A DNA stretch of 64,000 nucleotides from Demequina phytophila (GTDB lineage Bacteria > Actinomycetota > Actinomycetes > Actinomycetales > Demequinaceae): contig NZ_BBLW01000002.1 of NCBI RefSeq assembly GCF_000971135.1, positions 372,001-436,000 on the forward strand. The letters run 5' to 3'. Under the pieces are notes generated by a model, which was not told the origin of the DNA, made no database searches, and saw only the letters and a program-made list of their open reading frames with translations. The position numbers and the translations under genes are program-made. This document shows positions 9,763 through 64,000 of the stretch, in pieces; position 1 is the stretch's first letter; each line of letters opens with the position of its first letter.

Positions 9763-10703
9763 GCGGCGAGGTGCGCGTCGCCGTGCTCGGCTGCGGTGCG
9801 ATCGGCAGCCTGTACGCGGCCCATCTCGCGCGCGTGCCGGGAGTCGAGGTGTGGGCCGTCGACCCGTGGGCGGAGCACGTGGCGGCGATCGAGCGCGGCG
9901 GGCTGCGCGTCACGGGGCACGCCGACTTCCTTGCGCCGGTGCGCGCGATCACCGACGCCGCCGCGCTGCCCGACTGCGAGCTCGCGATCGTCGCGACCAA
10001 GGCGGGTCATACGCGCGCCGCCGTCGCGGCCGCCGCGCACGCGCTCCGAGGAGCCGCGGTTGCGAGCCTGCAGAACGGCCTCGGCAACGAGGAGGAGATC
10101 GCGGCGGTGGTCCCGCGGGTCATCCGCGGCAGCATCGTCACCGCCGGCGCCGTCACCGCGCCGGGCACCGTCCGCTACGACGCTCCCGGCGACTCCTGGC
10201 TGGGGCCGTTCGAGCCGAGCCCCGCATCGTCCCCCGACATCGCCCGCCTGGCGAGCCTGCTGACCGCAGGCGGCCTCCCCACGTTCGCGATGGACGATGC
10301 CCGCGGCCCCCAGTGGACCAAGGTGGTGTTCAACGCCGCGACCAGCGCGATCGCGGCCCTCACCGGGCTGACGATCGGCCAGGTCTGCACGCACCCGGAG
10401 CTGCGTCGACAGGTCGACGCGCTGATCGCCGAGGCGCTCGCCGTCTGCGCGGCATCGGGGATCTCGCTGCTCCGCGCGCCGGACGAGGCGGTCGAGGAGG
10501 CGGTCGCCGAGGCCTACTGGCACCGCCCGTCGATGCTGCAGGACGTCGCGGCGCGCCGGCCCACCGAGGTCGATGCGCTCAACGGCGGGATCGCGGCCGA
10601 GGGCGAGCGGCTCGGCGTGGCGACGCCGCTGCACGATGCGATGGTCGCGCTGGTGCACGGCCTGGAGTCCGGTTGGACGACCCCCGCGGATGCGGGTCAC
10701 TGA
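9759..10703 (+). CDS. Ketopantoate reductase (PanE/ApbA) family oxidoreductase
   Basis: A 314-residue protein with the N-terminal dinucleotide motif LGCGAIGS (residues 10-17) and the family's C-terminal helical domain (WTKVVFNAATSAIAALTGLTIG, then RPTEVDALNGGIAAEGERLGV). The family reduces ketopantoate to pantoate, but many paralogues in catabolic operons act on other 2-keto or 3-keto acids. Because it sits between a GlcG-like protein and a flavodoxin-like protein under the island's operator, a catabolic role is more likely than pantothenate synthesis; the panB of this window lies 33 kb away. ATG start inside an ATGA overlap. Confidence 0.78.
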   Translation: MSGEVRVAVLGCGAIGSLYAAHLARVPGVEVWAVDPWAEHVAAIERGGLRVTGHADFLAPVRAITDAAALPDCELAIVATKAGHTRAAVAAAAHALRGAAVASLQNGLGNEEEIAAVVPRVIRGSIVTAGAVTAPGTVRYDAPGDSWLGPFEPSPASSPDIARLASLLTAGGLPTFAMDDARGPQWTKVVFNAATSAIAALTGLTIGQVCTHPELRRQVDALIAEALAVCAASGISLLRAPDEAVEEAVAEAYWHRPSMLQDVAARRPTEVDALNGGIAAEGERLGVATPLHDAMVALVHGLESGWTTPADAGH

Positions 10704-10715
10704 CGGAGGCGAGAG

Positions 10716-11624
10716 ATGGGCAAGAAGGTGCTGGGGCTGTCCTGTGGGAACCCGGGCGGCAGCGTCGAGATCCTGACGGTCGAGGCCCTGCGCGCCGCCG
10801 AGGCGGCGGGGGCCGAGGTCGAGCTCGTGCGCCTCGACGACCTGCGGCTGGACCCGGGCGACGGCGGCGACGCGTGGTGGTTCTGGGAGCGGCTCATCGA
10901 CTGCGACGCGTGGATCATCGCCGCGCCGATCATCAGCAGGACGGTGCCTGGGCGCCTCAAGGTGCTCGGCGACCGGCTGCTCGGGCCGAACGCCGACGCC
11001 GCGATCATCGAGGGCCTGCTCGAGGCACGGCGCAGCGGCGAGGACCCCGCGGTGCCGTTCCGCGTCGACGAGCGCGTGCTCCGTCCCCGGGTCGCGGGCT
11101 TCATCGCGTGCGGCGGCGCGCTCACGACGCAGTGGAAGACGCTGGCATTGCCGGTCATGCACACGCTCACGTTCTCGATGAGCACCGCCGTGGTCGACCA
11201 GATGGTGGTGGAGGGCGCGGGCACACCGCGTTCGGTGCTGCTCGATCCCGACGCGATCGCGCGCGCGGAAGCGCTCGGGGCGAACGTCGCGAGCCAGCTG
11301 GGCCGCGGTCTCGACGACGCGGAGTACCTGGGACCTCCCGGGGCGTGCCCGATGTGCCATCTGGACGTGGTGGTGCTGCGCGGCGCGGACGTCGAGTGTG
11401 CGACGTGCGGCGCGCGCGGCCGGCTCGCAGGTGAGGGCGGCACGCTCGAGTGGACCGACCTCTCCGTGTCCGTGATCTCGATGGAGGAGCGCCACGCGCA
11501 CTACCGCGAGATCGTCGACACGGCGCGTGCGCACGCGGATCAGGCGGCTGCCCTCGCGCAGCGCGCCGCGGCCTATGAAGACTTCCCCCTCACGAGGCCG
11601 GGGGAGGCGGCGCAGGCACCGTAA
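10716..11624 (+). CDS. Flavodoxin-like NAD(P)H:FMN reductase with C-terminal zinc ribbon
   Basis: A 302-residue protein. Residues 1-200 resemble the NADPH-dependent FMN reductase/flavodoxin fold: VLGLSCGNPGGS is the phosphate-binding start, and AWIIAAPIISRTVPGRLKVLGDR is the FMN-contact loop. Residues 205-240 form a probable zinc ribbon with two CxxC pairs (C211/C214 and C228/C231). A short helical tail follows. Such reductases can supply reduced flavin to monooxygenases, but here the partner is unknown. A GGAGG-like site lies upstream of the ATG, 12 bases after the PanE-like stop. It is the last gene of this operon. Confidence 0.65.
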   Translation: MGKKVLGLSCGNPGGSVEILTVEALRAAEAAGAEVELVRLDDLRLDPGDGGDAWWFWERLIDCDAWIIAAPIISRTVPGRLKVLGDRLLGPNADAAIIEGLLEARRSGEDPAVPFRVDERVLRPRVAGFIACGGALTTQWKTLALPVMHTLTFSMSTAVVDQMVVEGAGTPRSVLLDPDAIARAEALGANVASQLGRGLDDAEYLGPPGACPMCHLDVVVLRGADVECATCGARGRLAGEGGTLEWTDLSVSVISMEERHAHYREIVDTARAHADQAAALAQRAAAYEDFPLTRPGEAAQAP

Positions 11625-11647
11625 GGTCACATCTTCGTCACGGCGGC

Positions 11648-11723
11648 GCGGATTGTAGACAATCCGCAGGCGCGCCTCTAGCATGATGATCACCGGCGAA
11701 AGTCGTTTTCATGATGTGAAAAC
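11648..11723 (+). promoter_or_regulatory. ABC-importer promoter: GntR-like palindrome plus shared island operator
   Basis: A perfect inverted repeat (GCGGATTGT, AG, ACAATCCGC; 11648-11667) overlaps a -35 TAGACA (11656-11661). A -10 TAGCAT follows at 11679-11684, 17 bases on. The island operator variant CGAAAG, TCG, TTTTCA and its third half-site GATGTGA occupy 11697-11719. The TTGT-AG-ACAA core is a style bound by GntR/FadR-type regulators, so this promoter may take two inputs. Confidence 0.65.
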
Positions 11724-11765
11724 CAGTAGGACACACCCCGATCGCGGACATCAAAGGAGATCCCC

Positions 11766-12788: not shown

Positions 12789-12807
12789 TCGGCACCTGGC
12801 GAAAGAA

Positions 12808-13914
12808 ATGACGATGACCAGTCCCGCTCAGGCGGGCGGCGCGGCGACTCCCGGGACCCCGGGAGCCGCCGCATCGTCCACCCCGCCCACCACTCCCGGC
12901 CCGGCCGTCGCGCCCGCGAAGGACAGCGCCGGCGTGCGCGGGCTCATCTTCCTGCGCGACCGCGGCATCTTCGTGCTGTGGGTCCTCCTCATCGCGGTGT
13001 TCGCGGTGTGGGCCAACCCCTACTTCGCGACGCTCAACAACGCGATCCTCATCGCCAACGCCGCGGCGATCAGCGCGATCTTCGCGGCGGGCGTCGCCGT
13101 CGGGATCATCTGCGGAGCGCTCGACCTGTCGATCCCCGGCGTCGCCGCGCTGTCGAGCTGCGTCGCCGGCTGGATGATCACCAACGGCCTGCCGGTGTGG
13201 CTGGCCCTGGTGGTGGGCATCGTGCTCGGCGCCCTCGTCGGGCTCGTGAACGGGCTGATCTCGCTGCGCGGCTTCAACCCCATCATCGTGACCATCGCGA
13301 TGCTGTCGATCACGTCGGCCGCGGCGGCGATCGTCGCCGGCGGGTACACCTTCCCGGGGCTCACCCAGCTCGACTTCATGGGCACGCAGCGCTACCTCGG
13401 GATCCCCGCGCCCGTGTGGATCACCGCCGGGGTGTTCCTGGTGGGAACCGTGTTCCTCACCAAGACCCGCGACGGCATCCGGCTCATGGCGGTCGGCGGC
13501 AGCGCCGAGGCCGTGCGCCGTTCGGGGATCCACAGCGACCGCTACAAGGTGTTCGCGTTCGTGATCTCGAGCACCTGCGCGGGGCTCGGCGGCCTCGTGA
13601 CCACCGCGACCGTCACCGAGGCCAATCCCAGCGCCAGCCCGGGCCTCATCTTCACCGCGCTCACGGCCGTCGCGCTGGCGGGCGTGTCCCTGGTGGGAGG
13701 CCGCGGAAGCCTCCCACGCGTGCTCGTCGGAGCGCTGGTCCTAGCGACCATCTCCAACGGCCTCACCATCGTCGGCGTGCAGCCGTACTGGGCGACCGGC
13801 GTGACCGGTGCGCTGCTCATCGGGTCGCTCACGCTCGAGCGATGGGTGACCACGTCGGTGTCCAGGCGACTGATGGCGACCGCGCAGGCGTCCGTCCACA
13901 CGGGAACGAGGTGA
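12808..13914 (+). CDS. Sugar-type ABC importer, permease (RbsC-like)
   Basis: A 368-residue membrane protein. The first ~45 residues are a Pro/Ala/Gly-rich cytoplasmic tail, followed by about ten hydrophobic segments typical of the ribose/xylose (BPD_transp_2) permease family. The block NPIIVTIAMLSITSAAAAIV and the later VGGSAEAVRRSGIHSDRYKV coupling region are characteristic. A GAAAGAAATG context gives a modest ribosome-binding site. It lies between the binding protein and the ATPase and presumably works as a homodimer. Confidence 0.88.
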   Translation: MTMTSPAQAGGAATPGTPGAAASSTPPTTPGPAVAPAKDSAGVRGLIFLRDRGIFVLWVLLIAVFAVWANPYFATLNNAILIANAAAISAIFAAGVAVGIICGALDLSIPGVAALSSCVAGWMITNGLPVWLALVVGIVLGALVGLVNGLISLRGFNPIIVTIAMLSITSAAAAIVAGGYTFPGLTQLDFMGTQRYLGIPAPVWITAGVFLVGTVFLTKTRDGIRLMAVGGSAEAVRRSGIHSDRYKVFAFVISSTCAGLGGLVTTATVTEANPSASPGLIFTALTAVALAGVSLVGGRGSLPRVLVGALVLATISNGLTIVGVQPYWATGVTGALLIGSLTLERWVTTSVSRRLMATAQASVHTGTR

Positions 13915-13919
13915 CCCCC

Positions 13920-15450: not shown

Positions 15451-15542
15451 CTCAACCCCGTCCGCGGGGGCGAGGCCTGACGCGCGCCCGACCGCCGCAT
15501 CGTCCCGTGGGACCAAAGCCCCTCGCACTGCCGTCCCGCGCC

Positions 15543-19001: not shown

Positions 19002-20342
19002 TCAGGAGCTGCGGCTGCGCTTCGCGTTCGCGATGAGCGTGGGGGACGATGCCTCGGCCGCCTTGGGCGCGGGACGTCGCCGGGGTGCCGGCTTGGGGGC
19101 GACGGGCGGCGCCACCGGGATCATCCGCTGCAGCTGCGTGACGTGGTCGGGGTTGAGCTCCGCCACGGAGGACACGCCCAGGAGCTTCATGGTGCGCAGC
19201 ACCTCACGCGACAGGATGTCGATCGCGCGGTCGACGCCCTCGCGGCCGCCGGCCATGAGCCCGTACAGGTACGCGCGGCCCACGAGCGTGAAGTCCGCGC
19301 CGCACGCAAGGGCGGCCACGATGTCGGCGCCGGCCATGATGCCCGTGTCGAGGACGATAGTGGTCTTGCCGCCCAGCTCCGCCGCCACCGACGGCAGCAG
19401 CCGGAAGGGGATCGGGGCGCGGTCGAGCTGGCGCCCGCCGTGGTTGGACAGCACCACGCCGTCGACGCCCCGGTCGACCACGGCCTTCGCGTCGTCGAGC
19501 GTCTGGATGCCCTTGACCGCGACCTTGCCCGGCCACTGGTCGCGGATCCACTCGAGGTCGTCGAAGTCGACCGTCGGGTCGAACAGCGAGTCGAGCAGCT
19601 CGCCGATGGTGCCGTTCCACTCGCTGAGCGACGCGAAGGTCAGCGGCTCGGTGGTGAGGAAGTTCCACCACCACTCCGGACGCGGGATCGCGTTCAGGAC
19701 GGTCTTGGGGGTCAGCTGCGGCGGGATGGTGAAGCCGTTGTAGCTGTCGCGCAGGCGTGCGCCGGCGGCGGGCACGTCCACGGTCACCAGCAGCGTGTCG
19801 AAGCCGGCGTCCGCGGCGCGCTGCATCAGCTGCATCGACTTGTCGCGGTCCTTCTGCATGTACAGCTGGAACCAGTTGCGGCCGTCGGGGTTGGCCTCGC
19901 GCACGCCCTCGGGCGACGTGGTGCCCAGCGTCGACAGCGAGAAGGGGATCCCGGCGGCGCCCGCGGCGGACGCGCCCGCGCGCTCACCCTCGGCCTGCAT
20001 CATGCGCGTGAAGCCGGTGGGCGCGATGCCGAACGGCATCGCGGAGCGGCCGCCGAAGATCTCGACGGACGTGTCCACCTGGGACACGTCACGCAGGATC
20101 GCCGGGTGGAACTCGATCTCGCGGAACGCGCGGCGTGCGCGGTTGAGCGACAGCTCCTCCTCAGCGGCGCCGTCCGTGTAGTCGAACGCGCCCTTCGGTG
20201 TGCGGCGCTTCGCGATCGCGCGCAGATCCGCGATGGTGTGCGCCTTGGCGAGGCGGCGCTTGCGGCCGTCCAGCTCGAGCGGCTTGAAGCGCATGAGCGG
20301 AACTAGGTCCGCCGGCCGGGGGATCCGGCGCTCCATCTTCAT
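19002..20342 (-). CDS. lldD: FMN-dependent alpha-hydroxy-acid (L-lactate) dehydrogenase
   Basis: A 446-residue protein of the FMN alpha-hydroxy-acid dehydrogenase family. Visible blocks are [44 protein letters not shown] and the catalytic-histidine motif SNHGGRQLD (near residue 300). The last ~35 residues are a Pro/Ala/Arg-rich, basic, low-complexity tail not needed for catalysis. Members oxidise L-lactate to pyruvate and pass electrons to quinone. It is the last gene of the rhamnose operon, one base after rhaK, and can consume the lactate formed from lactaldehyde by RhaEW. A mycofactocin-type or other hydroxy-acid substrate is the main alternative. Confidence 0.85.
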
Positions 20343-20343: not shown

Positions 20344-21765
20344 TCACAGTCCCTTCGGGGTGAACACTCGCGGTTTGAACGTACGCGCGACCAGGTCGCG
20401 CAGCGACTCGAGCGAGCCCGAGACCGCGCCCAGGGCGCGTCCCTGGATGAGCACGTTGCCGATCGCGGTCGCCTCGACCGGGCCCGCCATCACGGGAAGC
20501 CCGGCACGGTCCGCGGTGCGCTGGCACAGCAGCTCGTTGAGCGACCCTCCGCCGGTGATGTGGATCCGGGTGACGTCCTGCGCGGACAGGGCCGCCGCAT
20601 CGTGCACCGCGTCGGCGAAGGCCTGCGCGAGGCTCTCGATGATGCAGCGCGCCGTCTCGGCGCGCGTGGCGGGGATCCGGAACCCTCGCGACCCGAGCCA
20701 CGCGGCGACCCGCGCGGGCATGTCGCCCGGCGCCATGAACGCCTCGTCGTTCGCGTCGAACACGTCGACCTCGCCCGGAACGGCGGCGGCCTCCGCGAGC
20801 AGGCGCTCGAGGTCGACCTTCTCTCCGTCCCGCTCCCACTCGCGGATCGACTCCGACAGGATCCACAGGCCCATGACGTTGTGCAGGAACCGGGTGCGGC
20901 CGTCGACGCCGCCCTCGTTGGTGAAGTTCGCCTCGCGTGCGGCGTCGCTGAGCACGGGCGACTCCGTCTCGACGCCCACCAGGCCCCACGTGCCGCACGA
21001 GATGTACGCGCCGCCCGGCTCGGTCATCGGGGTCGCCACCACCGCGGACGCGGTGTCGTGCGAGCCGACCGCGACCACCGGCGTGTCGCCGCCGAGTCCC
21101 GTGACCTCGGCGACGTGGGGGAGGACCGTTCCCACACGCTCGCCCGGCTGGACGATGCGAGGGAACAGCCCGCGCCGCAGGCGCAGCCGGTCCATGAGCT
21201 CGCCGTCCCACTCCTTGGTGCTGACGTCCAGGAGCCCCGTGGTGGAGGCGTTGGTCGCCTCCGCCACGGTCGCGCCGGTGAGGTAGTAGGCCATGAGGTC
21301 CGGCACCAGCAGCAGGCGGTCCGCGACCGCCAGCATGCCGGCCTCGCGCTCCACCGCCAGCTGGTAGAGCGTGTTGAAGGGCAGGAACTGCAGCCCGTTG
21401 CGCGCATAGAGCAGGGAGAACGGTTCGTCCGCGTGCACCAGCTCGACACCGTGGGCGGTGCGCTCGTCGCGGTAGTGGAACGGCTCGCCGAGCACGCGGC
21501 CGCCGCGGAGGAGGGCGTAGTCGACGGCCCACGAGTCGATGCCGATGGATCGGATCGACTCGTCCCAGCGTGTGGCCGAGCGCAGCCCGTCGAGCACGTG
21601 CGCGTACAGCTCCTGGAGGTTCCAGTGCAGGCCGTCCGGCGTGCGGACGGGCCCGTTGGAGAACCGTCCGACCTGACGCAGCTCCAGGGTGTCGGGGCCC
21701 ACCTGACCGACCATGACGCGACCGGACGTCGCGCCGAGGTCGACCGCGGCGACCGCGACCGTCAT
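20344..21765 (-). CDS. rhaB: Rhamnulokinase
   Basis: A 473-residue FGGY-family sugar kinase. The phosphate-binding start [15 protein letters not shown] (about 6-20), [23 protein letters not shown] and the C-terminal [16 protein letters not shown] are rhamnulokinase hallmarks. It phosphorylates L-rhamnulose at O1 using ATP. Its ATG overlaps the rhaEW stop by four bases (21762-21765). It follows rhaEW and precedes lldD in the operon. Confidence 0.92.
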
Positions 21766-27213: not shown

Positions 27214-27315
27214 CGTGTCCCTGTCGTCGGCGGCGTGGGTGAGTGCGTCCGTAGGTTCTGACGCGCGCCGGGCGCGCAGGGTTCCCGGGGACGATGCGCG
27301 CGCTAGGTTGGCGCC

Positions 27316-29129: not shown

Positions 29130-29137
29130 ACCCCCGC
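29118..29137 (+). terminator. Short hairpin over the response-regulator stop codon
   Basis: GCGGGGG pairs with CCCCCGC around ACTGAA, which contains the stop codon. An exact copy of the dispersed 10-mer (29136-29145) begins in its last two bases. Confidence 0.45.
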
Positions 29138-29241
29138 ATCGTCCCTACTGCGGACGCGGTACGCGCAAGTGTCTGCGTCTGCCAGATTCCGCGCGGGCAC
29201 GCGCACGGAAGGCTGAAGTCATCACCGATCAAGGAGATGAC

Positions 29242-38934: not shown

Positions 38935-39099
38935 GTCCCGACACGCAGACACCGCGGGCTCGTTCCGGTCCGCCGGGTGGTTCGTTCCGCACGGTCGGCG
39001 GGGCGACACCCCGTGCGCGGGGGGACGATGCAGGGGCCGGGTCGGCGTGGCGCGCTCGGGACCGTGCGCAGCGAAGGATGGACGGGGTTGTCATTGCGC

Positions 39100-50645: not shown

Positions 50646-51520
50646 GGGCTCTGCGAACCGTGCTCTCGGCGCTGCTCATCCTGGTGGGCGCGTCCCTGAT
50701 CGCCGCGTGGGCGGTGAGCGGCGTGGTGGTGCGCGCGGTCGAGGACGGCACCGCGGTCCACGCGATCGCGGAGCGCGCGCTCGAGGACCAGGCGATCGTC
50801 GACGCGATCGGTACGGCGATCGCGGACGCCACGCTCGACGCCCTTGCCGAGGCCGGCTACGACCTCGGATTCCTCGGCCTCGACGACGTGGTGCGGGGCG
50901 CCATCGAGAATGCGGCCCGCTCGGACGACTTCGCCGACGCCCTGCTCGCGCAGGTGGACGATGCACGGGCGCAGTTCTCCTCCCACGTCACCGAGGAGGA
51001 GCGAGCGCCCGCGCCGCTCGTCATCGAGGTCGACCCGTCGCAGTACGTGAACGCGAGGATCGACGACATCCCGGTGGTGGGGGAGCGGGCGCCCGACGTC
51101 GCCCTCCAGCCGGTGCCGGTCGAGGTGATGAGCGCGTCGGACTTCGAGGACGTGCGGACCGGGTACCGCGCCGTCGAGACCGCGGCGCAGTGGGCGTTGT
51201 GGGCCGGCCTCGCCGCGATCGCGCTCGGGCTGGTGGTCACGCACCGGACCCGATGGTTCATGGTGAAGGCCGGCGCCGCCGTGGCGGTGGTCGCGGGCGG
51301 ACTGTGGCTGGTGCTGCGGTGGTGGGGGGTCGACGCGATCGTCGCCACGCTCCCCGGTGGCGCGGACGGGAGCGCCGGGACCGCATTTGCGCGCATCGTC
51401 ACGGAGGACACGGTGGCGGCGCTGTCCGAGAGGCTCGGCGTGATCGCGGCGGTCGGGTTCGCCGTCGCGGCGGTGTTCCTGGTGGTCGCGCTGCTGACGC
51501 GGCCGCGCGCAGCCGCGTGA
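50642..51520 (+). CDS. Membrane protein of unknown function, ATGA-coupled to glnE
   Basis: A 292-residue protein with one N-terminal hydrophobic segment (about 5-30), an external acidic region of ~150 residues, and three hydrophobic segments near the C-terminus (about 178-195, 203-225 and 255-285). It starts in the ATGA overlap with glnE. The external part (AIAERALEDQAIVDAIGTAIADA) resembles the extracellular domain of small actinobacterial integral proteins without assigned function. No catalytic motif is seen. Confidence 0.72.
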   Translation: MRALRTVLSALLILVGASLIAAWAVSGVVVRAVEDGTAVHAIAERALEDQAIVDAIGTAIADATLDALAEAGYDLGFLGLDDVVRGAIENAARSDDFADALLAQVDDARAQFSSHVTEEERAPAPLVIEVDPSQYVNARIDDIPVVGERAPDVALQPVPVEVMSASDFEDVRTGYRAVETAAQWALWAGLAAIALGLVVTHRTRWFMVKAGAAVAVVAGGLWLVLRWWGVDAIVATLPGGADGSAGTAFARIVTEDTVAALSERLGVIAAVGFAVAAVFLVVALLTRPRAAA

Positions 51521-52193: not shown

Positions 52194-52247
52194 TCCCCGG
52201 ATCGGGCGTCACCCCTCCCGCCTGCTCAGCCGACGCATCGTCCCGAA

Positions 52248-53291: not shown

Positions 53292-54812
53292 ATGGATGCA
53301 CCGCACCTGTTCGATGACTTGCCTGGTGGCTCTGGCGCCGGGTTCGCGTCGGCGTGTGTGGATGCTCGGGTGGCGGTGGGGACGATGCGGTCGCTGGCTT
53401 CCGTGGGCGGCTCGCCGGATGCGGTGGAGCGGTTGGGTGCGGCGGCGCAGGTGGCGCACGAGATGGATCTGGTCCTCGCGCGTACCGCGCGTGACATCGA
53501 GGTCCAGTCCGATGTGCCCGGGGGTGGGCTCGCGAAGCATCACGGCTTCCGCTGCGCGGCCGATCTGGTCGCCTCGCGCATGGGTACCCACAAGGCTGAG
53601 GCGGTCCGGCTGATCGAGATCGGTCGGGCGCTCGAGGAGCGTGAGAAGGGCGGCAAGCCCAAGCCTGATCCGGATGAGCCGAATCCGGGTGAGCCGGATC
53701 CCGACGACCCTGATGAGTCGAATCCTGATGACCCCGAGGACGAGGACGAGGACCGCGGCAAGGACGACCCGCAGCCCGTTCCGCAGGTGCGGTATCGCGC
53801 GATCGTGACAGAAGCCTTGGATGCGGGTCTGATCTCGGCGGACTGTGGCTCGCAGATCCTCATCATGCTCGACTCGCTGTCGGAGGACGTGACGGATGAG
53901 GCGAAGGAGGAGGCCGCAGCCGACCTCGTCAAGCGTGCCCAAGGGTTGGATTCGGGCAAGTTCGCCTCGATCGTGCGCGGTTTCAAGGCCGCGCTGGACG
54001 TGGAGCAGCATGAGCGCACGCTGGCCCAGAAGCGTCGGGAACGGTATCTGAAGATCTGGAACAACCGTGAGGGCATGGTCGAGCTCCACGGCGTGCTCGA
54101 TCCTGAGACCGCCGCACCCCTGCAAGCAGCGTTGAGCAAGCGTGTCGGTGACGCGATTCACGCCAGCCGCAACACCCCCGGCGAGGATGTCCGCACCACC
54201 GAGCAGATGCGTGCCGACGCGCTAGCGGACCTCGCCCGTCACGCCCTGGGCTGTGAGACCACCACCGCCTTGTTCGGCACCACCACCGTCGTCGTCCGCG
54301 CCACCGCAGCCGACCTCGAATCCGGCACAGGTTTAGCTGAGGTCGACGGCTGTGCCACCCCGATCGGGATGAGCATCGCGTTGCGCATGGCCGCCACCGC
54401 GATCATCGTGCCCGCCCTCATCGGCGACAAGGGCGAGCTGCTCAAGCTCGGACACCGCATCTACCCGTTCTCACGCGCCCAACGCATCGCCCTGGGCGAG
54501 CGTGACGGCGGCTGCGCGAAGTGCGGAGCACCCCCGGCATGGGCAGAAGCTCACCACATCATCTTCTGGTCCCGAGGCGGCCCCACGAACCTGTCCAACG
54601 GGGCACTTCTTTGCTCCCACTGTCACCACGTCATCCATGATCAAGGCTGGCAGATCAGAGCCACCGACACCGAGATCTGGTTCATACCCCCAGCATCAGT
54701 CGACCCGACACGCACCCCCTGGCAAGGCGGACGAGCACGCTTCGGCACCCCCCGACCCTGGAACAAGAAGGCCACCACCCACAGCAATAGTTCCGGCACG
54801 CCACCCGAATAG
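53292..54812 (+). CDS. DUF222 / HNH endonuclease (13E12-type) protein
   Basis: A 506-residue protein. The N-terminal ~330 residues follow the DUF222 pattern, interrupted at about 118-160 by an acidic Pro/Asp/Glu linker (PDPDEPNPGEPDPDDPDES is part of it). The C-terminal HNH domain has two zinc CxxC pairs, CAKCG and CSHCH, around EAHHIIFWSRGGPTNLSNG. Such genes occur in many paralogous copies in actinobacteria and mycobacteria; some behave as mobile or selfish elements. Base composition by eye is less G+C-rich than its neighbours, especially in the last 700 bases. No inverted repeats were found around it. Confidence 0.88.
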   Translation: MDAPHLFDDLPGGSGAGFASACVDARVAVGTMRSLASVGGSPDAVERLGAAAQVAHEMDLVLARTARDIEVQSDVPGGGLAKHHGFRCAADLVASRMGTHKAEAVRLIEIGRALEEREKGGKPKPDPDEPNPGEPDPDDPDESNPDDPEDEDEDRGKDDPQPVPQVRYRAIVTEALDAGLISADCGSQILIMLDSLSEDVTDEAKEEAAADLVKRAQGLDSGKFASIVRGFKAALDVEQHERTLAQKRRERYLKIWNNREGMVELHGVLDPETAAPLQAALSKRVGDAIHASRNTPGEDVRTTEQMRADALADLARHALGCETTTALFGTTTVVVRATAADLESGTGLAEVDGCATPIGMSIALRMAATAIIVPALIGDKGELLKLGHRIYPFSRAQRIALGERDGGCAKCGAPPAWAEAHHIIFWSRGGPTNLSNGALLCSHCHHVIHDQGWQIRATDTEIWFIPPASVDPTRTPWQGGRARFGTPRPWNKKATTHSNSSGTPPE

Positions 54813-54950: not shown

Positions 54951-55859
54951 CTAGCCCGACGTACGCGCCGCGCGCTCGAGCAGCGGTGAGAGCTGGCTGC
55001 TGGTGACCGCGCGCGCCGCTTGAGAGGCACCCACCTCGAGCGCCTCCCACAAGGCGTCGCCCCGGAGCTCGGCCGCGCCGCCCACCTGCAGTGCGTGCGA
55101 CATCACCCCGGCGGCGAAGGCATCGCCCGCCCCGTTGGGGTCGACCACCGTCACCTGCGGCGCCTCGACGCGCGCGAAGGACCCGTCGGGTCCCACCGCG
55201 ATCGCGCCGTGCGCGCCCAGCGTGCAGATGGCGAGCGTCTTGCCCTCGGCGATGAGCGCGCGCAGGTACGTCGACGGGTGAGTGATGCGATCCCCGTTCA
55301 TCAGCACCACGTCGGCCGCCTCGACGAAGGGCCGGTGGAACGCCTGCTCGCCGTCGTAGTCGTGGACGTCCACCCACACCTCGCGCGCGAGCGCGGTGAC
55401 CTCGGGGATGAGGCTCCGCGACAGGTCGGCGAGGTCCAGGAACACCGCTTGCGCGTGCCCGAGCGCCTCCCGCGCCGTCGCGCGTGCCCGCCGCATCTCC
55501 TCGTCGCCGATCGCCCCCGCCTGCTGCAGGTAGATCGAGACGCGCTCGCCGCGCGCCGACATGAGGTTGAGGTGACGCTCGGTGGGCCCCTCGGTCATGA
55601 CCGCGCGGACGTCCACCCCGCACCCCCGGAGGGTGTCGACGAGGCCCTGGCCCGCGGCATCGTCCCCCTGGGTGGTGAGGAGCGTGGTGGCGACGCCGCG
55701 ATCGACCAGGTGGAGCGCCTTACCGGCGGAGGTGCCACCCAACGCGGTGGAGGAGGACCGCGCGAACACCGTGTGCGGCTCGCGGCGCGGCAGCTCGTCG
55801 AGCTGCACGATCTGGTTCTCGCTCGTGGGTCCCACCACGAGCACGTCGAGCTCAGTCAT
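54951..55859 (-). CDS. PfkB-family carbohydrate kinase
   Basis: A 302-residue ribokinase-fold kinase. GGTSAGKALHLVDRG (41-55) is the substrate-side glycine motif, and VVDPNGAGDAFAAGV (238-252) is the C-terminal PfkB signature with catalytic D246; the usual threonine of DTxGAGD is replaced. It phosphorylates a sugar or nucleoside. The ATG at 55859 overlaps the LacI stop by 8 bases, so it is expressed with the regulator and probably belongs to the alpha-glucosidase unit. Confidence 0.85.
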   Translation of the reverse strand: MTELDVLVVGPTSENQIVQLDELPRREPHTVFARSSSTALGGTSAGKALHLVDRGVATTLLTTQGDDAAGQGLVDTLRGCGVDVRAVMTEGPTERHLNLMSARGERVSIYLQQAGAIGDEEMRRARATAREALGHAQAVFLDLADLSRSLIPEVTALAREVWVDVHDYDGEQAFHRPFVEAADVVLMNGDRITHPSTYLRALIAEGKTLAICTLGAHGAIAVGPDGSFARVEAPQVTVVDPNGAGDAFAAGVMSHALQVGGAAELRGDALWEALEVGASQAARAVTSSQLSPLLERAARTSG

Positions 55860-56883
55860 GCCGTCCGGGCGCGACCGCCGTCGAGCGCCGCACCGTGAGG
55901 TCATAGGGGAGGCGCAGCGCGGGGTGCTGCTGCGAGGCCTGCGGGCGCAGCTCGGCGAGAAGGGTCTCGGCGGCGAGGCGGCCCTGCTCGACCGGCCGCT
56001 GGTCGACGGTGGTGAGCTCGAAGAACTGCCCGAGCTCGTGACCGTCGATGCCGATCACGCTCACGTCCTCGGGGACGCGCAGGCCCAGCGAGCGGGCGGC
56101 GAGGATCGCGCCGATCGCCATCTCGTCGGAGGCGGCGAAGATCGCGGTGGGCCGGCGGCGGGGGTCGCCGAGGATCTGCAGTGCGGCGCGGTGGCCGCCC
56201 TCGATGGTGAAGTCGCCCTCGAGTCGCAGCGCCGGGTCCACCGGCGCCCCGACCGCGGTGAGCGCGTCCTCCCAGCCCTGGCGGCGCCGCTTGGGGAGGT
56301 GGAAGTCGAGGTCGAAGCCCTCGGTACCACCGATGAACGCGATGCGGCGGTGTCCGAGCGACGTGAGGTGGGACGTGGCGAGCTCGGCGACGGCGCGGTC
56401 GTCGAGGCTCAGCGTCGTGACGCCCGCGAGCGGGCCGCCCAGGCCCACCATGGGCTTCCCGAGGTCGTGGATGCGACCCAGCTCCTCCTTGGTGAGCTCG
56501 AGCGACACCGCGATGAACGCGTCGACGCGCTTGCGTCCCAGGAACTCGTTGAAGAGGCGGCGGCGTCGCTCGGGATGACGCGTGGTGTCCTCGAGGTGGT
56601 AGAGCGTGAGGTCGTACCCGGCGTCCGCGAGCGCGCGGTGCGCCCCCTTCAGGACGTTCGCGTAGTACCAGCTGCCCAGGAACGGCATGACGATGCCGAC
56701 GTTCCGCGTGCGCCCCGACGCAAGGGACGATGCGGTGGCCGAGGCGACGTACCCGAGCGAACGTGCCGCGTCCTCCACCTTCTGACGGGTGGCGGCGGAG
56801 ACCGTGGACTTGCCGGACAGCGCGCGGGAGACGGTGGCCGTGGACACGCCGGCCAGCTCAGCGACCCCCTGGATCGTCGCCAC
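55852..56883 (-). CDS. LacI-family regulator of the alpha-glucosidase/sugar-kinase unit
   Basis: A 343-residue repressor. The helix-turn-helix reads ATIQGVAELAGVSTATVSRALSGKSTVS, followed by a sugar-binding core (VGIVMPFLGSWYYANVLKGAH, FIAVSLELT, IFAASDEMAIGAILAAR, VIGIDGHEL). Two successive GTG codons follow a GGAAGGAG site; the second (56883) has the better spacing. It lies between the GH13 gene and the PfkB gene on the same strand. The LacI-type site TGTAAGCGGTTGCA before the GH13 gene is the likely target. Confidence 0.88.
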   Translation of the reverse strand: MATIQGVAELAGVSTATVSRALSGKSTVSAATRQKVEDAARSLGYVASATASSLASGRTRNVGIVMPFLGSWYYANVLKGAHRALADAGYDLTLYHLEDTTRHPERRRRLFNEFLGRKRVDAFIAVSLELTKEELGRIHDLGKPMVGLGGPLAGVTTLSLDDRAVAELATSHLTSLGHRRIAFIGGTEGFDLDFHLPKRRRQGWEDALTAVGAPVDPALRLEGDFTIEGGHRAALQILGDPRRRPTAIFAASDEMAIGAILAARSLGLRVPEDVSVIGIDGHELGQFFELTTVDQRPVEQGRLAAETLLAELRPQASQQHPALRLPYDLTVRRSTAVAPGRHD

Positions 56884-56953: not shown

Positions 56954-58624
56954 CTACTCGGGCACCCGAACCCAGACCGTCGCGTCGGCCGGCAGCATGC
57001 CGCCCTCGAGCTCGTGGGAGGCGACGAGCACCTCTCCCGCGACCGCGACGGGCTCGCCGCTGACGTTCGCGACCACGTGGACGTCCCCCACGCGGTGGGA
57101 GAGGACCCCGGCCGGCGCATCGTCCCACGTCACCGTGCCGGTGCCCACCCCGAGGCCCAGCTCGCGGCGCAGCCGCAGCGCGGCGCGGTACATCTCCAGG
57201 GTCGAACCCTCGGCGCCGAGCTGACGGTCGCGTGCGAGCACGCCGTATACCTCGGGCTGCGGCAGCCACGTCTCGCCGGCGGGGGAGAACCCGTACGCAG
57301 GTGCGTCAGCCTCCCACGGCAGCGGCACGCGGCAGCCGTCGCGGCCGTAGCGCTCGCCCTCGGTGCGGTGCCACGTGGGGTCCTGGCGCGCGTCGCCGGG
57401 GATGTCGATGGCCTCGGGAAGGCCCAGCTCCTCGCCCTGGTAGAGGTACGCGCCGCCGGGCAGCGACAGCATGAGCAGCGAGGCCGCCCGGGCGCGTCGG
57501 ATGCCCTCGTCGATGTCGGGCAGGCCGGGGGAGTCCGGGCCCACGCCGTGGCCCTGCGGGGTGTCCTCGCCGAGCGCGAGGCGCGTGGCGTGGCGGATCA
57601 TGTCGTGGTTGGACAGCACCCACGTCGACGGGGCGCCCACCGCGCCGAACGTGGCGATCGAGTCGTCGATCACCTTGCGCAGCGCCGCGGCGTCCCACGG
57701 CGTCTCCATGTAGCCGAAGTTGAACGTCTGGTGCATCTCGTCGGGGCGCACCCAGTTCGCCATGAACTCGAGCGGGTACACCCAGGCCTCGGCGGCGAGG
57801 ATGCGGTCGCCCTCGTACTCGTCCACCACGGTGCGCCAGCGGCGCCACACCTCGTGCACGCCGTCCTGCGCCCAGTACGGCGACTTGGTGGCGGCGCCGC
57901 CACCCATCGACGCCTCCTCGTCCGACTGGACGAAGTCCGGCAGGCCGTCCGCCTTGATGAGGCCGTGCGCGACGTCGACACGGAAGCCGTCGACGCCGCG
58001 GTCGAGCCAGAAGCGCAGAGTGTCGTCGAACTCGGCCCGCACCTCCTCGAGCTCCCAGTTGAAGTCGGGCTGGGAGGTGTCGAAGATGTGCAGGTACCAC
58101 TGGCCGGGGGTGCCGTCGGGCTCGTTGACGCGGGTCCACATGGGGCCGCCGAACACGGACTCCCAGTTGTTCGGGGGCAGCTCACCGTGGGTGCCCTTGC
58201 CGTCGCGGAAGATGTAGCGCTCGCGCTCGGGCGAGCCCGGGCCCGCCTCAAGGGCGGCTTGGAACCAGGGGTGCTGGTCGCTCGAGTGGTTCGGCACGAT
58301 GTCCGCGATGACCCGCAGCCCGAGCTCGTGAGCGCGCGAAACCATCGCGTCGAAGTCCGCGAGCGTGCCGAACAGCGGGTCCACGTCGCGGAAGTCGGAC
58401 ACGTCGTAGCCGGCGTCCTTCTGGGGGGAGCGGTAGAACGGCGACAGCCAGATCGCGTCCACCCCGAGGTCCGCGAGCGAGTCGAGCCGGGCCGTGATGC
58501 CGCGCAGGTCGCCCACGCCGCTGCCATCCGAGTCCGCGAAGGATCGCGGGTAGATCTGATAGATGACGGAGGAGCGCCACCACTCCTGGTCGGGCGTGCG
58601 GGGGGCGGCGTCGGTGTGGGCCAC
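56954..58624 (-). CDS. GH13 alpha-glucosidase (oligo-1,6-/alpha-1,4-glucosidase type)
   Basis: A 556-residue cytoplasmic enzyme starting at a GTG with GAGAGGA upstream. The catalytic residues are D217 (GFRVDVAHGL), E279 (LAAEAWV) and D341 (LSNHDM). Region I is IADIVPNHSS and region V QPDFNWE. The set fits exo-acting alpha-glucosidases cleaving maltose-, isomaltose- or sucrose-like sugars. It lacks a signal peptide, so its substrate must be imported. It is the first gene of the GH13-lacI-pfkB unit. Confidence 0.9.
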   Translation of the reverse strand: MAHTDAAPRTPDQEWWRSSVIYQIYPRSFADSDGSGVGDLRGITARLDSLADLGVDAIWLSPFYRSPQKDAGYDVSDFRDVDPLFGTLADFDAMVSRAHELGLRVIADIVPNHSSDQHPWFQAALEAGPGSPERERYIFRDGKGTHGELPPNNWESVFGGPMWTRVNEPDGTPGQWYLHIFDTSQPDFNWELEEVRAEFDDTLRFWLDRGVDGFRVDVAHGLIKADGLPDFVQSDEEASMGGGAATKSPYWAQDGVHEVWRRWRTVVDEYEGDRILAAEAWVYPLEFMANWVRPDEMHQTFNFGYMETPWDAAALRKVIDDSIATFGAVGAPSTWVLSNHDMIRHATRLALGEDTPQGHGVGPDSPGLPDIDEGIRRARAASLLMLSLPGGAYLYQGEELGLPEAIDIPGDARQDPTWHRTEGERYGRDGCRVPLPWEADAPAYGFSPAGETWLPQPEVYGVLARDRQLGAEGSTLEMYRAALRLRRELGLGVGTGTVTWDDAPAGVLSHRVGDVHVVANVSGEPVAVAGEVLVASHELEGGMLPADATVWVRVPE

Positions 58625-58863: not shown

Positions 58864-59598
58864 GTGACCGCGATCTGCCCCAGCCGCCGCCGCGCCGAGC
58901 GCGAGGCGACCCGCCCCGCCGAGCTCGCCGCCGCATCGTCCCCGGGCCCTCTCGACCCGCCCAGCGCCACCGTCCGCACCGCGGTGACCGTGCCGCTGAG
59001 GTTCCCCGACGGCTACGCGACCACCGGCCGCGTGGTGACCTTCGACGGGCTCGTGGACGGTCGCGAGCACCTCGCGATCGGGCTGGGCGACTGGGAAGGC
59101 GCGCTCGAGCGTTTCGCCGCCGGGGGAGAGGCGCCGCTGGTCCGCCCGCATTCGGAGTGCCTCACCGGGGACGTGCTCGGCTCGGAGCGCTGCGACTGCG
59201 GCCCACAGCTGCGCGAGGCGGTCGAGCGCATCGCCGAGACCGGCGGGTTCCTGCTGTACCTGCGCCAGGAGGGCCGTGGGATCGGGCTGTACGCCAAGCT
59301 CGACGCGTATGCGCTCCAGGACGCGGGGCTCGACACGTACGAGGCGAACCTCGCGCTCGGCCACGGCGAGGACGAGCGCGACTACGCGCCCGCCGCGCAG
59401 ATGCTGCGCGCCGTGGGAGCGAACCGGATCCGGCTGCTGTCCAACAACCCCGACAAGGCCGCGCAGCTCGAGCTGCTGGGCGTCGACGTTGAGCAGCGCG
59501 TGCCCACGGGAGTCCACCTCACCGACGCCAACGCCCGCTACCTGGCCGCGAAGGTCGAGCACACGGACCACACCCTGACGCTGCCCGGCCTCCGCTGA
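58864..59598 (+). CDS. ribA: GTP cyclohydrolase II
   Basis: A 244-residue enzyme catalysing the first step of riboflavin synthesis from GTP. The zinc cysteines C99, C110 and C112 are in HSECLTGDVLGSERCDCGPQ, and YLRQEGRGIGLYAK, ANLALGHGEDERDY and RLLSNNPDKAAQLE are complete. It stands alone, without a fused DHBP synthase domain. The first ~40 residues are a non-conserved Ala/Pro/Arg-rich extension. The GTG has GAGGAGGA upstream. No FMN riboswitch was recognised in the 5' region. Confidence 0.92.
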   Translation: MTAICPSRRRAEREATRPAELAAASSPGPLDPPSATVRTAVTVPLRFPDGYATTGRVVTFDGLVDGREHLAIGLGDWEGALERFAAGGEAPLVRPHSECLTGDVLGSERCDCGPQLREAVERIAETGGFLLYLRQEGRGIGLYAKLDAYALQDAGLDTYEANLALGHGEDERDYAPAAQMLRAVGANRIRLLSNNPDKAAQLELLGVDVEQRVPTGVHLTDANARYLAAKVEHTDHTLTLPGLR

Positions 59599-59678
59599 CG
59601 CCTCGCGCGACCGCCCCGCCTGGCAGACTGGCAGACGCGGGGCCCGCGCGGGTCCGTACGGGGGCCGAGGGAGGCGCG

Positions 59679-60749
59679 GTGAAGCGGATCGTCGTGTGCT
59701 GTGACGGCACGTGGAGCAAGGCCGACCAGGCCCGGCCCACCAACGTGGTCAAGCTGTACCGCGCGGTCCTGCCCACGGCGCCCGACGGCGTCGAGCAGCG
59801 TGTCCACTACCTGCCGGGCGTCGGGACGAGGCCCGGTGAGCGGATCCTGGGCGGCGTGTTCGGCTGGGGTCTCTCGCGCGAGGTCCGCGACGGCTACCGC
59901 GCGGTCGCCGAGGACTACGAGCCCGGCGACCAGATCTTCCTGCTCGGCTACAGCCGCGGCGCGTACACGGCGCGCTCCATCGCGGGGTTCCTGCGCAACG
60001 CCGGCGTGCTCCGACCCGAGCACCTGGGGCGGCTCGACGAGGCCTACGACCTCTACCGCGACCGCTCGCACGACAGCGCCCCCAGCGCGGCGCGCGCGGA
60101 GGAGTTCCGTGCCGCCTACTCGCACCCCGACCTCGAGATCGAGTTCGTCGGGGTGTTCGACACGGTCGGATCGCTGGGCATCCCCGGCTCCTCGATCCCC
60201 GTGATCAAGTGGTTCAACCGGCGCTGGAGCTTCCACGACACCACGCTGTCGAGCAAGGTCCGTGCCGCCGCGCACGCGCTCGCCATCGACGAGCAGCGCA
60301 CCGCGTTCGCGCCCACCCTGTGGGACAGGCCCGACCGCGACCCCGCACAGGTGCTCGAGCAGGTGTGGTTCGCCGGTTGCCACTCCAACGTGGGCGGGGG
60401 CGGCGGCGCGAACACCGGGCTCTCCGACATCGCGCTCGGGTGGATCGCGCACATGGCCACGCGCAGGGGGCTCGCGTTCGGGGACGATGCGTTCGTCGCG
60501 GGCCACCATGTCGCCACCGGGGCCTCGGGGACGGCTCCGTACGCGCCCGACTCGATGGCCGACTTCACGGACTCGCGCAGCGGGCCGTTCAAGCTGTGGG
60601 CGCCGTTCGTGCGGCCGCTGCTCGCCGCCAAGGACGGCAACGAGACGCTGTCCTCGACCGCGGTGGCCCGCCACGCCGCGCGCCCCAACACCAAGCCGCA
60701 GAACCTCATCGACGCGCTCGCGGGCGCGCACCGCATCACCGAGGTGTGA
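59679..60749 (+). CDS. DUF2235 alpha/beta-hydrolase-fold protein
   Basis: A 356-residue protein beginning at GTG with GAGGGAGG upstream. The opening RIVVCCDGTW, the nucleophile elbow FLLGYSRGAYTAR (S92), the aspartate in FVGVFDTVGSLG and the histidine in WFAGCHSNVGGG are the DUF2235 hallmarks. In Proteobacteria this domain occurs in type VI phospholipase effectors; in actinobacteria it appears without secretion genes and its role is unknown. No signal peptide is visible. A small gene of unknown function follows in the same direction. Confidence 0.85.
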   Translation: MKRIVVCCDGTWSKADQARPTNVVKLYRAVLPTAPDGVEQRVHYLPGVGTRPGERILGGVFGWGLSREVRDGYRAVAEDYEPGDQIFLLGYSRGAYTARSIAGFLRNAGVLRPEHLGRLDEAYDLYRDRSHDSAPSAARAEEFRAAYSHPDLEIEFVGVFDTVGSLGIPGSSIPVIKWFNRRWSFHDTTLSSKVRAAAHALAIDEQRTAFAPTLWDRPDRDPAQVLEQVWFAGCHSNVGGGGGANTGLSDIALGWIAHMATRRGLAFGDDAFVAGHHVATGASGTAPYAPDSMADFTDSRSGPFKLWAPFVRPLLAAKDGNETLSSTAVARHAARPNTKPQNLIDALAGAHRITEV

Positions 60750-60798
60750 GCGAGGCGCTCGACTCTGGCAGACTCCCGCCATCGGAGAGGGGTGAACG

Positions 60799-61215: not shown

Positions 61216-61236
61216 GCACCGCCGAGGCCCCGCGCC

Positions 61237-62676: not shown

Positions 62677-62714
62677 GCGCCCTCCTCCCGTCCCCTCGAA
62701 ACCTAGCAAGTCCA

Positions 62715-62766
62715 GGGACGATGCGCGGGGTGAGGGGTCGCGCGGACGTCGCCCGCGCATCGTCCC
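62715..62766 (-). terminator. Terminator-like inverted pair of exact 10-mer copies
   Basis: GGGACGATGCGCGGG (62715-62729) and CCCGCGCATCGTCCC (62752-62766) are perfect 15-bp inverted copies with a 22-base loop, beginning 4 bases after the stop of the ZIP-like gene. Both arms contain the dispersed 10-mer. Confidence 0.7.
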
Positions 62767-62770
62767 CCCG

Positions 62771-63454
62771 TCAGGATGCGGCGAGCGTGAGGCCGAAGCC
62801 CACCACCGCCCAGATGCCCGCCGCGATCCGTCCCTTCTCGTACGCGAACGGGATCATCGACGTGGTGAGCATGGCGATGAGCGCGCCGGTGGTGAGCGCC
62901 GCGAGACGCGCGCCGTTGACGGACCCCACGGCGTCGGCGACGCCGTAGCCGATCGCGGAGGCCGCGCCCGCCGCGACCACCACCGAACCCCACAGCAGCA
63001 GCTGCTTGCGGGCGGGCCAGCCGCTCGTCCGCATGTCCGCCGCGGGCGGCAGGGCCTGCGGGATGTTCGACACCCACACCGATACCGCGAGCGCGGGGCT
63101 CACCAGCCCGGCGACCATCTGGATGCCGAAGATGAGCGACTCGGGCAGCGCGTCCACGATGTTGCCCACCACGATCCCCATGGCTCCCGAGGACCCGAAG
63201 CGGCGCTCCACGAGCGTGTCCGCGATGACGTAGACGAACCCGCCGACCAGCAGCCAGATGCCGATCTCGCGGTTGCCGAGCGACGCCTGCGCCTCGGGGA
63301 CCAGCTGGAACGCAGCGGCGGCGATCAGGGCGCCGGCACCGAGCCCGGCGAGCTGGCCGACCGCGCGGTCGGCCAGGGTGAACCGGTAGACCACCAGACC
63401 GGCGAGCAGCAGGGACGACTGCGCCGCCACGCCCACCAGCAGAGCCTCGATCAC
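62771..63454 (-). CDS. ZIP-like (metal cation) membrane transporter
   Basis: A 227-residue protein with about seven hydrophobic segments. GAGALIAAAAFQLVPEA and GNIVDALPESLIFGIQ follow the pattern of ZIP transporter helices 2 and 4, but the metal-binding HxxPE reads DALPES, so the usual histidine is aspartate. The GTG at 63454 is chosen because a -10 TACCGT (63466-63461) stands 6 bases upstream; an ATG at 63472 lacks any ribosome site. Zinc, manganese or another divalent ion is possible. Confidence 0.72.
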   Translation of the reverse strand: MIEALLVGVAAQSSLLLAGLVVYRFTLADRAVGQLAGLGAGALIAAAAFQLVPEAQASLGNREIGIWLLVGGFVYVIADTLVERRFGSSGAMGIVVGNIVDALPESLIFGIQMVAGLVSPALAVSVWVSNIPQALPPAADMRTSGWPARKQLLLWGSVVVAAGAASAIGYGVADAVGSVNGARLAALTTGALIAMLTTSMIPFAYEKGRIAAGIWAVVGFGLTLAAS

Positions 63455-63503
63455 GTTCTCACGGTAGGGCATCCGCGCTGGTGGGGCGCGGGATCGCGGA
63501 GGG

Positions 63504-63977
63504 TCACACCCGTGCGGGTGCGCCCCGCATGACCAGCGGCTCGTCGAGCAGGCCCGCGTACGCCGCACGCTCCGCGTCCGTGAGCGAGCGCGGGCGCTGA
63601 GTCTCGGGGTCCAGGTACACGAGCGTGGTGACCACGCGCGCGTACTCCTCGCCGGTGGTCGCGCGCAGCACGTGGTGGATCTCGCAGCTCGCCCGGCCCA
63701 GGCGTGCCGCCCAGATGTCCACCACGACGGGTGCGGGGGACCACGTGAGCTGGCGCACGTACTCGACCTCGTGGCGGGCCACCACCACGGGCGCGCGGCC
63801 TCCGCGCGTCACCACGCCGCCCGCGTCCGTGCCCGAACCCAGGGCCCCCCGGATGAGCGGGTGGAGCGCTCTGATCCGCACCTCCTCGAGCAGAGTGAGG
63901 TACGCGACGTTGTTCACGTGGCCGTTGGAGTCGATGTCCGCCCACCGCAGCTCCACCGGGACCGTCAGCCGGGGCAT
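63504..63977 (-). CDS. Hotdog-fold acyl-CoA thioesterase (4HBT family)
   Basis: A 157-residue protein with the 4HBT signature LRWADIDSNGHVNNVAYLTLLEEVR (residues 10-34 hold it; the acidic and histidine residues are D14/D16 and H20). EVEYVRQLTWSPAPVVVDIWAARLGRASCEIHH is the second strand set. It hydrolyses acyl- or hydroxybenzoyl-CoA-type thioesters. The gene is complete in the window; an exact 10-mer copy (63991-64000) lies just upstream of its ATG. Confidence 0.87.
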   Translation of the reverse strand: MPRLTVPVELRWADIDSNGHVNNVAYLTLLEEVRIRALHPLIRGALGSGTDAGGVVTRGGRAPVVVARHEVEYVRQLTWSPAPVVVDIWAARLGRASCEIHHVLRATTGEEYARVVTTLVYLDPETQRPRSLTDAERAAYAGLLDEPLVMRGAPARV

Positions 63978-64000
63978 CCGGGCGACCGCCGCATCGTCCC

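Follow-up and report, generated by a model that had tools for sequence, protein, structure and literature searches.

According to a 2025 account, words that guide DNA uptake have been reported from two Gram-negative families only, the Neisseriaceae and the Pasteurellaceae (PMC12616744). For the Neisseriaceae, the DNA uptake sequences (DUS) are described as forming inverted pairs, as falling into dialects congruent with the core phylogeny, and as being permissively placed between genes (PMC3630211). Haemophilus influenzae, representing the uptake signal sequences (USS) of the Pasteurellaceae, is reported to share with Neisseria gonorrhoeae an abrupt fall from exact to singly mismatched words (PMC1939737), and 65% of its copies are given as genic at about 86% coding (PMC2346458). 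Transformation in Micrococcus luteus is described as requiring tad genes, with comEA and comEC also mattering (PMC4322843, PMC6370729, PMC8467076). For actinobacteria, we found no report of an uptake word in the open literature that was searched, most subscription papers and preprints lying outside that search; the papers listed for the word itself appear, from their titles, to concern other subjects. Here we analyse a stretch of 64,000 nucleotides from the actinobacterium Demequina phytophila (contig NZ_BBLW01000002.1, positions 372,001 to 436,000; C11:372001-436000 in our numbering of the genome), hereafter called the window, in which the 10-mer GCATCGTCCC and the 9-mer GCATCGTCC are strongly over-represented. 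We consider it quite probable that GCATCGTCC serves this species as its uptake sequence and is kept by biased uptake. Taken as a whole, the data are in our view best read as an uptake-sequence system that evolved independently in actinobacteria, and most of the DNA uptake sequence hallmarks that can be tested are present.

The resemblance to the DUS of the Neisseriaceae lies in a word of 9-12 bases that recurs hundreds or thousands of times, in inverted pairs, in a preference for intergenic positions, and in dialects which keep a core and track phylogeny (PMC3630211, PMC12616744). To the USS of the Pasteurellaceae it lies in an exact core, an abrupt drop at one mismatch, extra conserved outer positions, and about two thirds of the copies being genic (PMC1939737, PMC2346458, PMC12616744). 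The word itself, here a putative uptake sequence, is unrelated to the DUS and USS words GCCGTCTGAA and AAGTGCGGT (PMC3630211), and its host is a high-GC actinobacterium outside both families. It differs from the DUS also in that a ComP-like receptor was not identified, and from the USS in that its extra positions are an upstream CC, where the USS has AT-rich downstream segments, and in showing neither an overall enrichment of mismatched forms nor a bias toward gene ends.

The word is abundant and exact throughout the genome

The over-representation in the window is confirmed, and it is stronger than first noted. There are 25 exact copies of GCATCGTCCC, 14 on the forward and 11 on the reverse strand, where 0.49 would be expected, which makes it the top-ranked 10-mer of the window; adding the 33 one-mismatch copies gives 58; 100 dinucleotide shuffles averaged 14.6 and reached at most 24. 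The 9-mer GCATCGTCC is found 41 times. A preliminary description, made from the letters of the window, had counted 24 exact copies (13 and 11 by orientation) and about fifteen with one mismatch, fewer than we find. The first 10.2 kb, which it took to be empty of exact copies, contains one at 4630, together with four copies of the 9-mer only. It had further placed 8 of 24 copies between genes. By our gene calls, which come from our own codon-model script and not from a standard caller, the number is 10 of 25.

Across the genome (2,984,965 bases) we find 903 copies of GCATCGTCCC, 463 on one strand and 440 on the other, and only 10 (6 and 4) of the reversed word. The count is about 90 times that of this control, so the uptake reading stands after the genome-wide count that the preliminary description had proposed as a check. 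The 9-mer reaches 1,538 copies, 766 and 772 by strand, with 21 for its reversed control. The mean density of the word in the chromosome is about one per 2 kb, gaps between copies are near-random (coefficient of variation 0.92), and in the eight stretches sampled there is no marked strand skew, as for example in 200 kb with 65 copies against 53.

Examination of 462 kb of the genome indicated that the real unit is the 9-mer together with an upstream CC: C occupies each of positions -5 and -4 in about 80% of copies, C is favoured also at -1 and immediately 3' of the 9-mer, and the full motif is about CCNNCGCATCGTCCC. In 502 kb, to which the counts for D. phytophila refer from here on unless stated otherwise, both the -5 and the -4 C are present at 188 of 276 copies of GCATCGTCC. 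As the CC shows up similarly in intergenic, sense and antisense copies, it is part of the motif and not a codon effect. The 9-mer is not self-complementary, and its flanks are asymmetric. With Markov expectations computed from the same sequence as the counts, the 276 exact copies compare with 14.4 expected (19.1-fold), whereas one-mismatch words number 339 against 345 expected (0.98-fold); among the latter, the only excess, 1.8-fold, is in words whose mismatch falls on the last position.

Conservation was assessed against the sister species D. silvatica (G254), which has 90.3% identity across 241,854 aligned bases. There, 120 of 138 aligned copies of GCATCGTCC are identical; for control words, which were up to 150 words of the same composition and mostly rare permutations, the figure is 229 of 480 sites. 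Of 166 sites with one mismatch in D. phytophila, 9 are exact copies in D. silvatica, and for 40 control words 31 of 3,688 are. Where the sequence does not align to D. silvatica the word is scarcer, with 2 copies in 9.1 kb as compared with 116 in 190.6 kb; the sample is small.

Placement of copies relative to genes

Copies of GCATCGTCC are denser between genes (1.77 per kb) than within them (0.41 per kb), and 67% of copies are genic where 90% of the sequence is coding. The 184 genic copies divide almost equally by strand, 91 being sense and 93 antisense. The frames are unevenly used: the sense frame reading Ala-Ser-Ser has 64 copies and the sense frame next to it 22, the antisense frame reading Asp-Asp-Ala has 87, and the remaining three frames hold 11. 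With 151 of the 184 copies in two of the six frames, protein sequence limits the sites that are possible; the earlier statement that the word occurs in all frames holds only in part. No bias toward gene ends is apparent, the counts by decile of gene length being 20, 23, 18, 16, 19, 18, 14, 23, 10 and 23 of 184.

Codon usage as the cause of the word is rejected by synonymous shuffling, both in D. phytophila and in seven further genomes, in each of which its own word is likewise in excess over the shuffles. In D. phytophila, 40 shuffles of the 453 called genes yield 19.9 genic copies on average and never more than 30, as compared with the 184 seen. This agrees with the preliminary view that the word is not driven by codons, and the second refuting condition named there, an explanation by codon bias, does not hold. 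The form with the other Ala codon, GCGTCGTCC, is depleted, with 17 seen against 80.8 in shuffles. Other control words lie at their shuffles or slightly above them, among the latter the reversed word (4 against 0.9), GCATCGGCC (31 against 20.3) and GCACCGTCC (27 against 16.6).

Inverted pairs separated by at most 80 bases number 12, and 10 of these are outside called genes; their offsets are 24-27 (seven pairs), 40-41 (four) and 58 (the remaining one). Pairs of the opposite orientation and tandem pairs number 5 each. Of the 92 intergenic copies, 19 have an exact partner on the stem side and 4 have one on the wrong side; for the 184 genic copies the corresponding numbers are 5 and 4. Between convergent genes, the intergenic density is 2.32 per kb (13 copies), against 1.89 and 1.99 per kb elsewhere. 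A role in termination was rejected for the bulk of copies, which are genic and strand-balanced and show little preference for convergent ends. Inverted pairing looks secondary, as has been proposed for Neisseria, where a larger share of copies is found in such pairs.

Dialects of the word within Demequina

A clear dialect is found in 36 of 44 Demequina genomes, in all cases strand-balanced. The T dialect, GCATCGTCC, is present in 16 of them with 929 to 1,864 copies per genome, and the G dialect, GCATCGGCC, in 18 with 584 to 2,018; a third dialect, AGCGTCGGGC, is present in two, with 908 copies in G357 and 254 in G313. The three share the core GC-TCG--C and the upstream C(C); in each of the five other Demequina genomes examined for it, the commonest bases at -5/-4 are C or CC. 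The dialects are nearly exclusive. Among the 16 T genomes, five (G103, G028, G243, G145 and G173) also contain 447-664 copies of GCATCGGCC. Weak signs of a dialect were seen in G397, G384 and G284. In a sample of the order, GCATCGTCCC reaches 452 to 945 copies in 14 of 34 Demequina genomes and exceeds about 55 copies in none of the 362 genomes from outside the genus.

The dialects largely follow the rpoB phylogeny. A tree from rpoB DNA takes in 30 of the 44 genomes, with G357 and G313, which carry the third dialect, labelled "none". In this tree one clade (100/100) takes in 8 of 9 G-labelled genomes and another (100/99) takes in 13 of 14 T genomes, and each of the two labels needs 2 changes; G384, with its weak G dialect, falls outside the G clade. 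The k-mer list of this last genome is headed by words from a CRISPR-like array with a period of 61 and a repeat starting GGATCACCCCCGCTCGCGCGGGGAC (L240, 18820 onward).

Candidate uptake machinery

The preliminary description had suggested a search for comE and pil genes, and comEA, comEC and a type IV pilus operon are present. The comEA gene, encoding SLBB and helix-hairpin-helix domains, adjoins comEC on C11. On C6, the genes of the type IV pilus operon are pilB, pilT, pilC, pilA, those of minor pilins, pilD and pilM, and the genes which come after pilM are called pilN and pilO from position only. The operon (C6:80305-88930) is free of the word, has a GC content of 0.645, below that of the genome, and lies in a gap of 8.6 kb, among the largest word-free gaps. 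A Tad/Flp locus at C7:151325-155517 encodes tadA, tadB and an Flp-like pilin of 53 residues (Pfam DUF4244), and includes two small genes in tadE/tadF-like positions with no Pfam match. With comEA-comEC, these genes make a set like that of Flp/Tad transformation in M. luteus, unlike which the Demequina genome has the type IV pilus operon as well.

Within the genus, comEC was found in 40 of 41 genomes and PF00437 ATPases in all 41. The minor pilins of D. phytophila are closest to those of D. silvatica and then to those of the G-dialect species G210 and G045; in several species of the T dialect no match to them was found. In two genomes the comEC match is in two pieces (G357:C1:2039413-2040200 and G401:C1:423579-424363), that of G401 being one open frame with an internal TGA; the split may reflect an assembly error or decay of the gene. 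G357 still carries a strong third dialect.

A probable uptake sequence and the alternatives to it

The reading as an uptake sequence, which the preliminary description had named first, ahead of a methylation target, a nucleoid-protein target and an unfamiliar binding site, is supported by the dialects with their common core, the boundary between exact and one-mismatch words, the inverted pairs, and the competence and pilus genes. Words that are dense, exact, non-palindromic, unoriented and conserved, that prefer intergenic positions and that come in dialects with a common core are, among the systems known to us, the signature of uptake sequences. The mechanism we propose is one in which a surface DNA receptor on the competence pilus would bind word-bearing DNA better than other DNA, so that the fragments taken up and recombined would be enriched in the word; this biased uptake, a molecular drive, would accumulate and maintain copies on any strand, wherever coding permits. 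ComEA and ComEC would then move one strand into the cell. Related dialects in other lineages would be explained because receptor and word, as we propose, co-evolve. Demequina cells should on this mechanism be transformable, and their uptake should prefer the word; as the receptor, a Tad/Flp pilus of the M. luteus type would be our first guess and the type IV pilus our second.

Several observations weigh against an uptake sequence. To our knowledge, there is no report of transformation in Demequina. Since comEC is found in Demequina genomes with and without the word it is no discriminator, and the type IV minor pilins vary between species without tracking dialect, providing no receptor candidate. 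Eight of the 44 genomes (G293, G340, G284, G396, G404, G398, G384 and G397) are without a clear word among those searched for, and samples of 100 kb each from G293 and G340 also failed to show one. Exclusivity of the dialects is incomplete, G103 having 1,294 copies of GCATCGTCC and 664 of GCATCGGCC, and G393, of the T dialect, is placed by rpoB among genomes without that dialect. In a second family with a strong word of its own (f17, see below), only 4 of 79 genomes carry PilM, the marker of the type IV pilus, so that the type IV pilus is not the general reader there. Mismatched forms are reported as over-represented too in H. influenzae and Neisseria (PMC1939737), and Pasteurellaceae words as leaning to gene ends (PMC2346458), in contrast to the 0.98-fold ratio and the flat deciles seen here. 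The main texts of two M. luteus studies (PMC4322843, PMC8467076) do not use the term "uptake sequence".

The word might instead be the site of a chromosome-organising, repair or replication protein, needed about once per 2 kb and drifting in specificity between lineages. Dispersed copies that are conserved against the sister species and near-randomly spaced would suit such a protein, any DNA-binding protein could co-evolve with its own sites, and the lack of enrichment of one-mismatch words is consistent with strict binding of any kind. However, the 1,538 exact 9-mers are far above the numbers usual for known nucleoid-protein sites, the copies have no marked orientation skew, and a swap of more than 1,000 sites between sister lineages, expected under uptake drive, would presumably be hard for an essential protein; we consider this explanation unlikely. 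A methylation target or a motif like HIP1, its numbers raised by methylation-linked repair or by selfish restriction-modification, has a precedent in the HIP1 of cyanobacteria, which is also a short word over-represented genome-wide and of unclear function, and the enrichment of the palindrome CGCGATCGCG in the window can be counted in its favour. HIP1 is a palindrome, whereas the Demequina word is non-palindromic, extends to a gapped upstream CC and has dialects; restriction targets, moreover, are usually avoided rather than enriched, and the dialect changes preserve core and flank, as they would with a common binder. All this makes a methylation target quite improbable.

The inverted pairs, and their position largely outside called genes, are what could be expected if the word were part of transcription terminators or of some other RNA element, but the preponderance of genic copies, their balance between sense and antisense, and an excess at convergent ends which is only slight leave this with very little to recommend it. 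Codon-pair, amino-acid or base-composition bias would account for the concentration of genic copies in two frames, and perhaps for control words lying slightly above their shuffles; it is refuted by the fall from 184 to about 20 copies upon shuffling, by the higher density between genes and by the same result in seven other genomes, and we give it virtually no credence. Words that are short, frequent and species-specific are known for FtsK loading and for Chi, and a strand-oriented guide of either kind, such as the FtsK-orienting polar sequences (KOPS), was therefore weighed as well. The preliminary description had argued from strand balance against these. By strand counts, the word is balanced in the window and in whole genomes and has no marked skew in larger stretches; a guide of this kind is exceedingly improbable.

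Words in other actinobacterial families

Samples of 16 to 40 kb were taken from 18 genomes of other genera, with G004 (2.2 kb) and G010 (6.4 kb) dropped as too short. Clear words were found in two, CGGCATAC in G017 and CGAGGCATCCG in G021, and the other 16 samples had none. Both words occur on both strands, in genes and between them, with some inverted pairs, and both exceed synonymous shuffles (16 against 0.5 and 11 against 0.4, respectively). In the family of G017 (f17; G017 loci L259 and L260), CGGCATAC is strand-balanced; of 79 genomes, 42 hold between 939 and 4,724 copies of it and the remaining 37 hold 7 to 293; reversed-word controls reach up to 463 in some genomes of this family, so the weaker cases need care. 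As in Demequina, comEC is uninformative as a discriminator, being present in 76 of the 79. In G021 (f19; loci L261 and L262), GAGGCATCC has 1,452 copies against 5 of the reversed word; among the 80 genomes of the family that were searched, a congener of G021 has 466 copies of it, and genomes of six further genera range from 266 to 552. CGGCATAC and the f19 word are unrelated to the Demequina word and similar to it in behaviour.

That self-recognition by uptake words arose repeatedly in the Gram-positive Actinomycetales, and is read there by Tad/Flp rather than by type IV pili, is a suggestion for which we see about equal grounds for belief and doubt. Its three word families would be the GC-TCG--C dialects of Demequina, CGGCATAC and GAGGCATCC. 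If it is true, high-GC Gram-positive bacteria would have in sequence-selective transformation a widespread way of mating that has mostly gone unnoticed. Any such system in actinobacteria would mean that self-recognition evolved independently outside the Proteobacteria, in bacteria without an outer membrane, and would predict natural transformation in many species not known as competent. Tagging of donor DNA could then serve as a genetic tool for actinobacteria that are hard to engineer. The two dialects which differ by one base within a single genus offer a ready system in which to find the receptor.

In G022 (f20; L275 and L276), GCGGCATCG is weakly enriched (10 against 1.7 in 40 kb) and is possibly a further word. 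Among the matches listed in a pattern scan for inverted word pairs, many are from Demequina, and others are from Gemmiger, Methylobacterium, Nocardia and more. Contigs of Gemmiger and Faecalibacterium (L042, L079, L090 and L058) have several 22-base hairpins with GCATCGTCCC arms, which sit within a longer dispersed repeat; these hairpins seem unrelated to the Demequina word.

Copies in the window

The positions of all exact copies in the window are collected in Table 1, in which genic and intergenic refer to our own gene calls.

Table 1. Exact copies of the 10-mer, and copies of the 9-mer only, in the 64-kb window of D. phytophila (position 1 is the first base of the window).
Word	Position	Strand	Context	Remark
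GCATCGTCCC	4630..4639	+	genic	
GCATCGTCCC	10224..10233	+	genic	
GCATCGTCCC	15497..15506	+	intergenic	
GCATCGTCCC	19043..19052	-	genic	
GCATCGTCCC	22790..22799	-	genic	
GCATCGTCCC	27288..27297	-	intergenic	
GCATCGTCCC	29136..29145	+	intergenic	
GCATCGTCCC	31538..31547	+	genic	
GCATCGTCCC	36209..36218	+	genic	
GCATCGTCCC	39022..39031	-	intergenic	
GCATCGTCCC	40400..40409	-	genic	
GCATCGTCCC	42453..42462	-	genic	
GCATCGTCCC	42874..42883	+	intergenic	
GCATCGTCCC	45463..45472	+	genic	
GCATCGTCCC	45788..45797	-	genic	
GCATCGTCCC	52235..52244	+	intergenic	
GCATCGTCCC	53379..53388	-	intergenic	
GCATCGTCCC	55657..55666	+	genic	
GCATCGTCCC	56724..56733	-	genic	
GCATCGTCCC	57117..57126	+	genic	
GCATCGTCCC	58933..58942	+	genic	
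GCATCGTCCC	60481..60490	-	genic	
GCATCGTCCC	62715..62724	-	intergenic	left arm, inverted pair 62715-62766
GCATCGTCCC	62757..62766	+	intergenic	right arm, inverted pair 62715-62766; stem-loop possible
GCATCGTCCC	63991..64000	+	intergenic	
GCATCGTCC 9-mer only	1049..1057	-	genic	
GCATCGTCC 9-mer only	4352..4360	-	genic	
GCATCGTCC 9-mer only	7388..7396	+	genic	
GCATCGTCC 9-mer only	9492..9500	-	genic	
GCATCGTCC 9-mer only	10292..10300	-	genic	
GCATCGTCC 9-mer only	12871..12879	+	intergenic	
GCATCGTCC 9-mer only	21150..21158	-	genic	
GCATCGTCC 9-mer only	23101..23109	+	genic	
GCATCGTCC 9-mer only	28214..28222	+	genic	
GCATCGTCC 9-mer only	35462..35470	-	genic	
GCATCGTCC 9-mer only	36938..36946	+	genic	
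GCATCGTCC 9-mer only	37909..37917	-	genic	
GCATCGTCC 9-mer only	38493..38501	+	genic	
GCATCGTCC 9-mer only	45226..45234	+	genic	
GCATCGTCC 9-mer only	48056..48064	-	genic	
GCATCGTCC 9-mer only	50956..50964	-	genic	

The palindrome CGCGATCGCG occurs 32 times in the window against 5.8 expected, both strands being counted, and it is enriched also in the samples from G293, G340 and G313.

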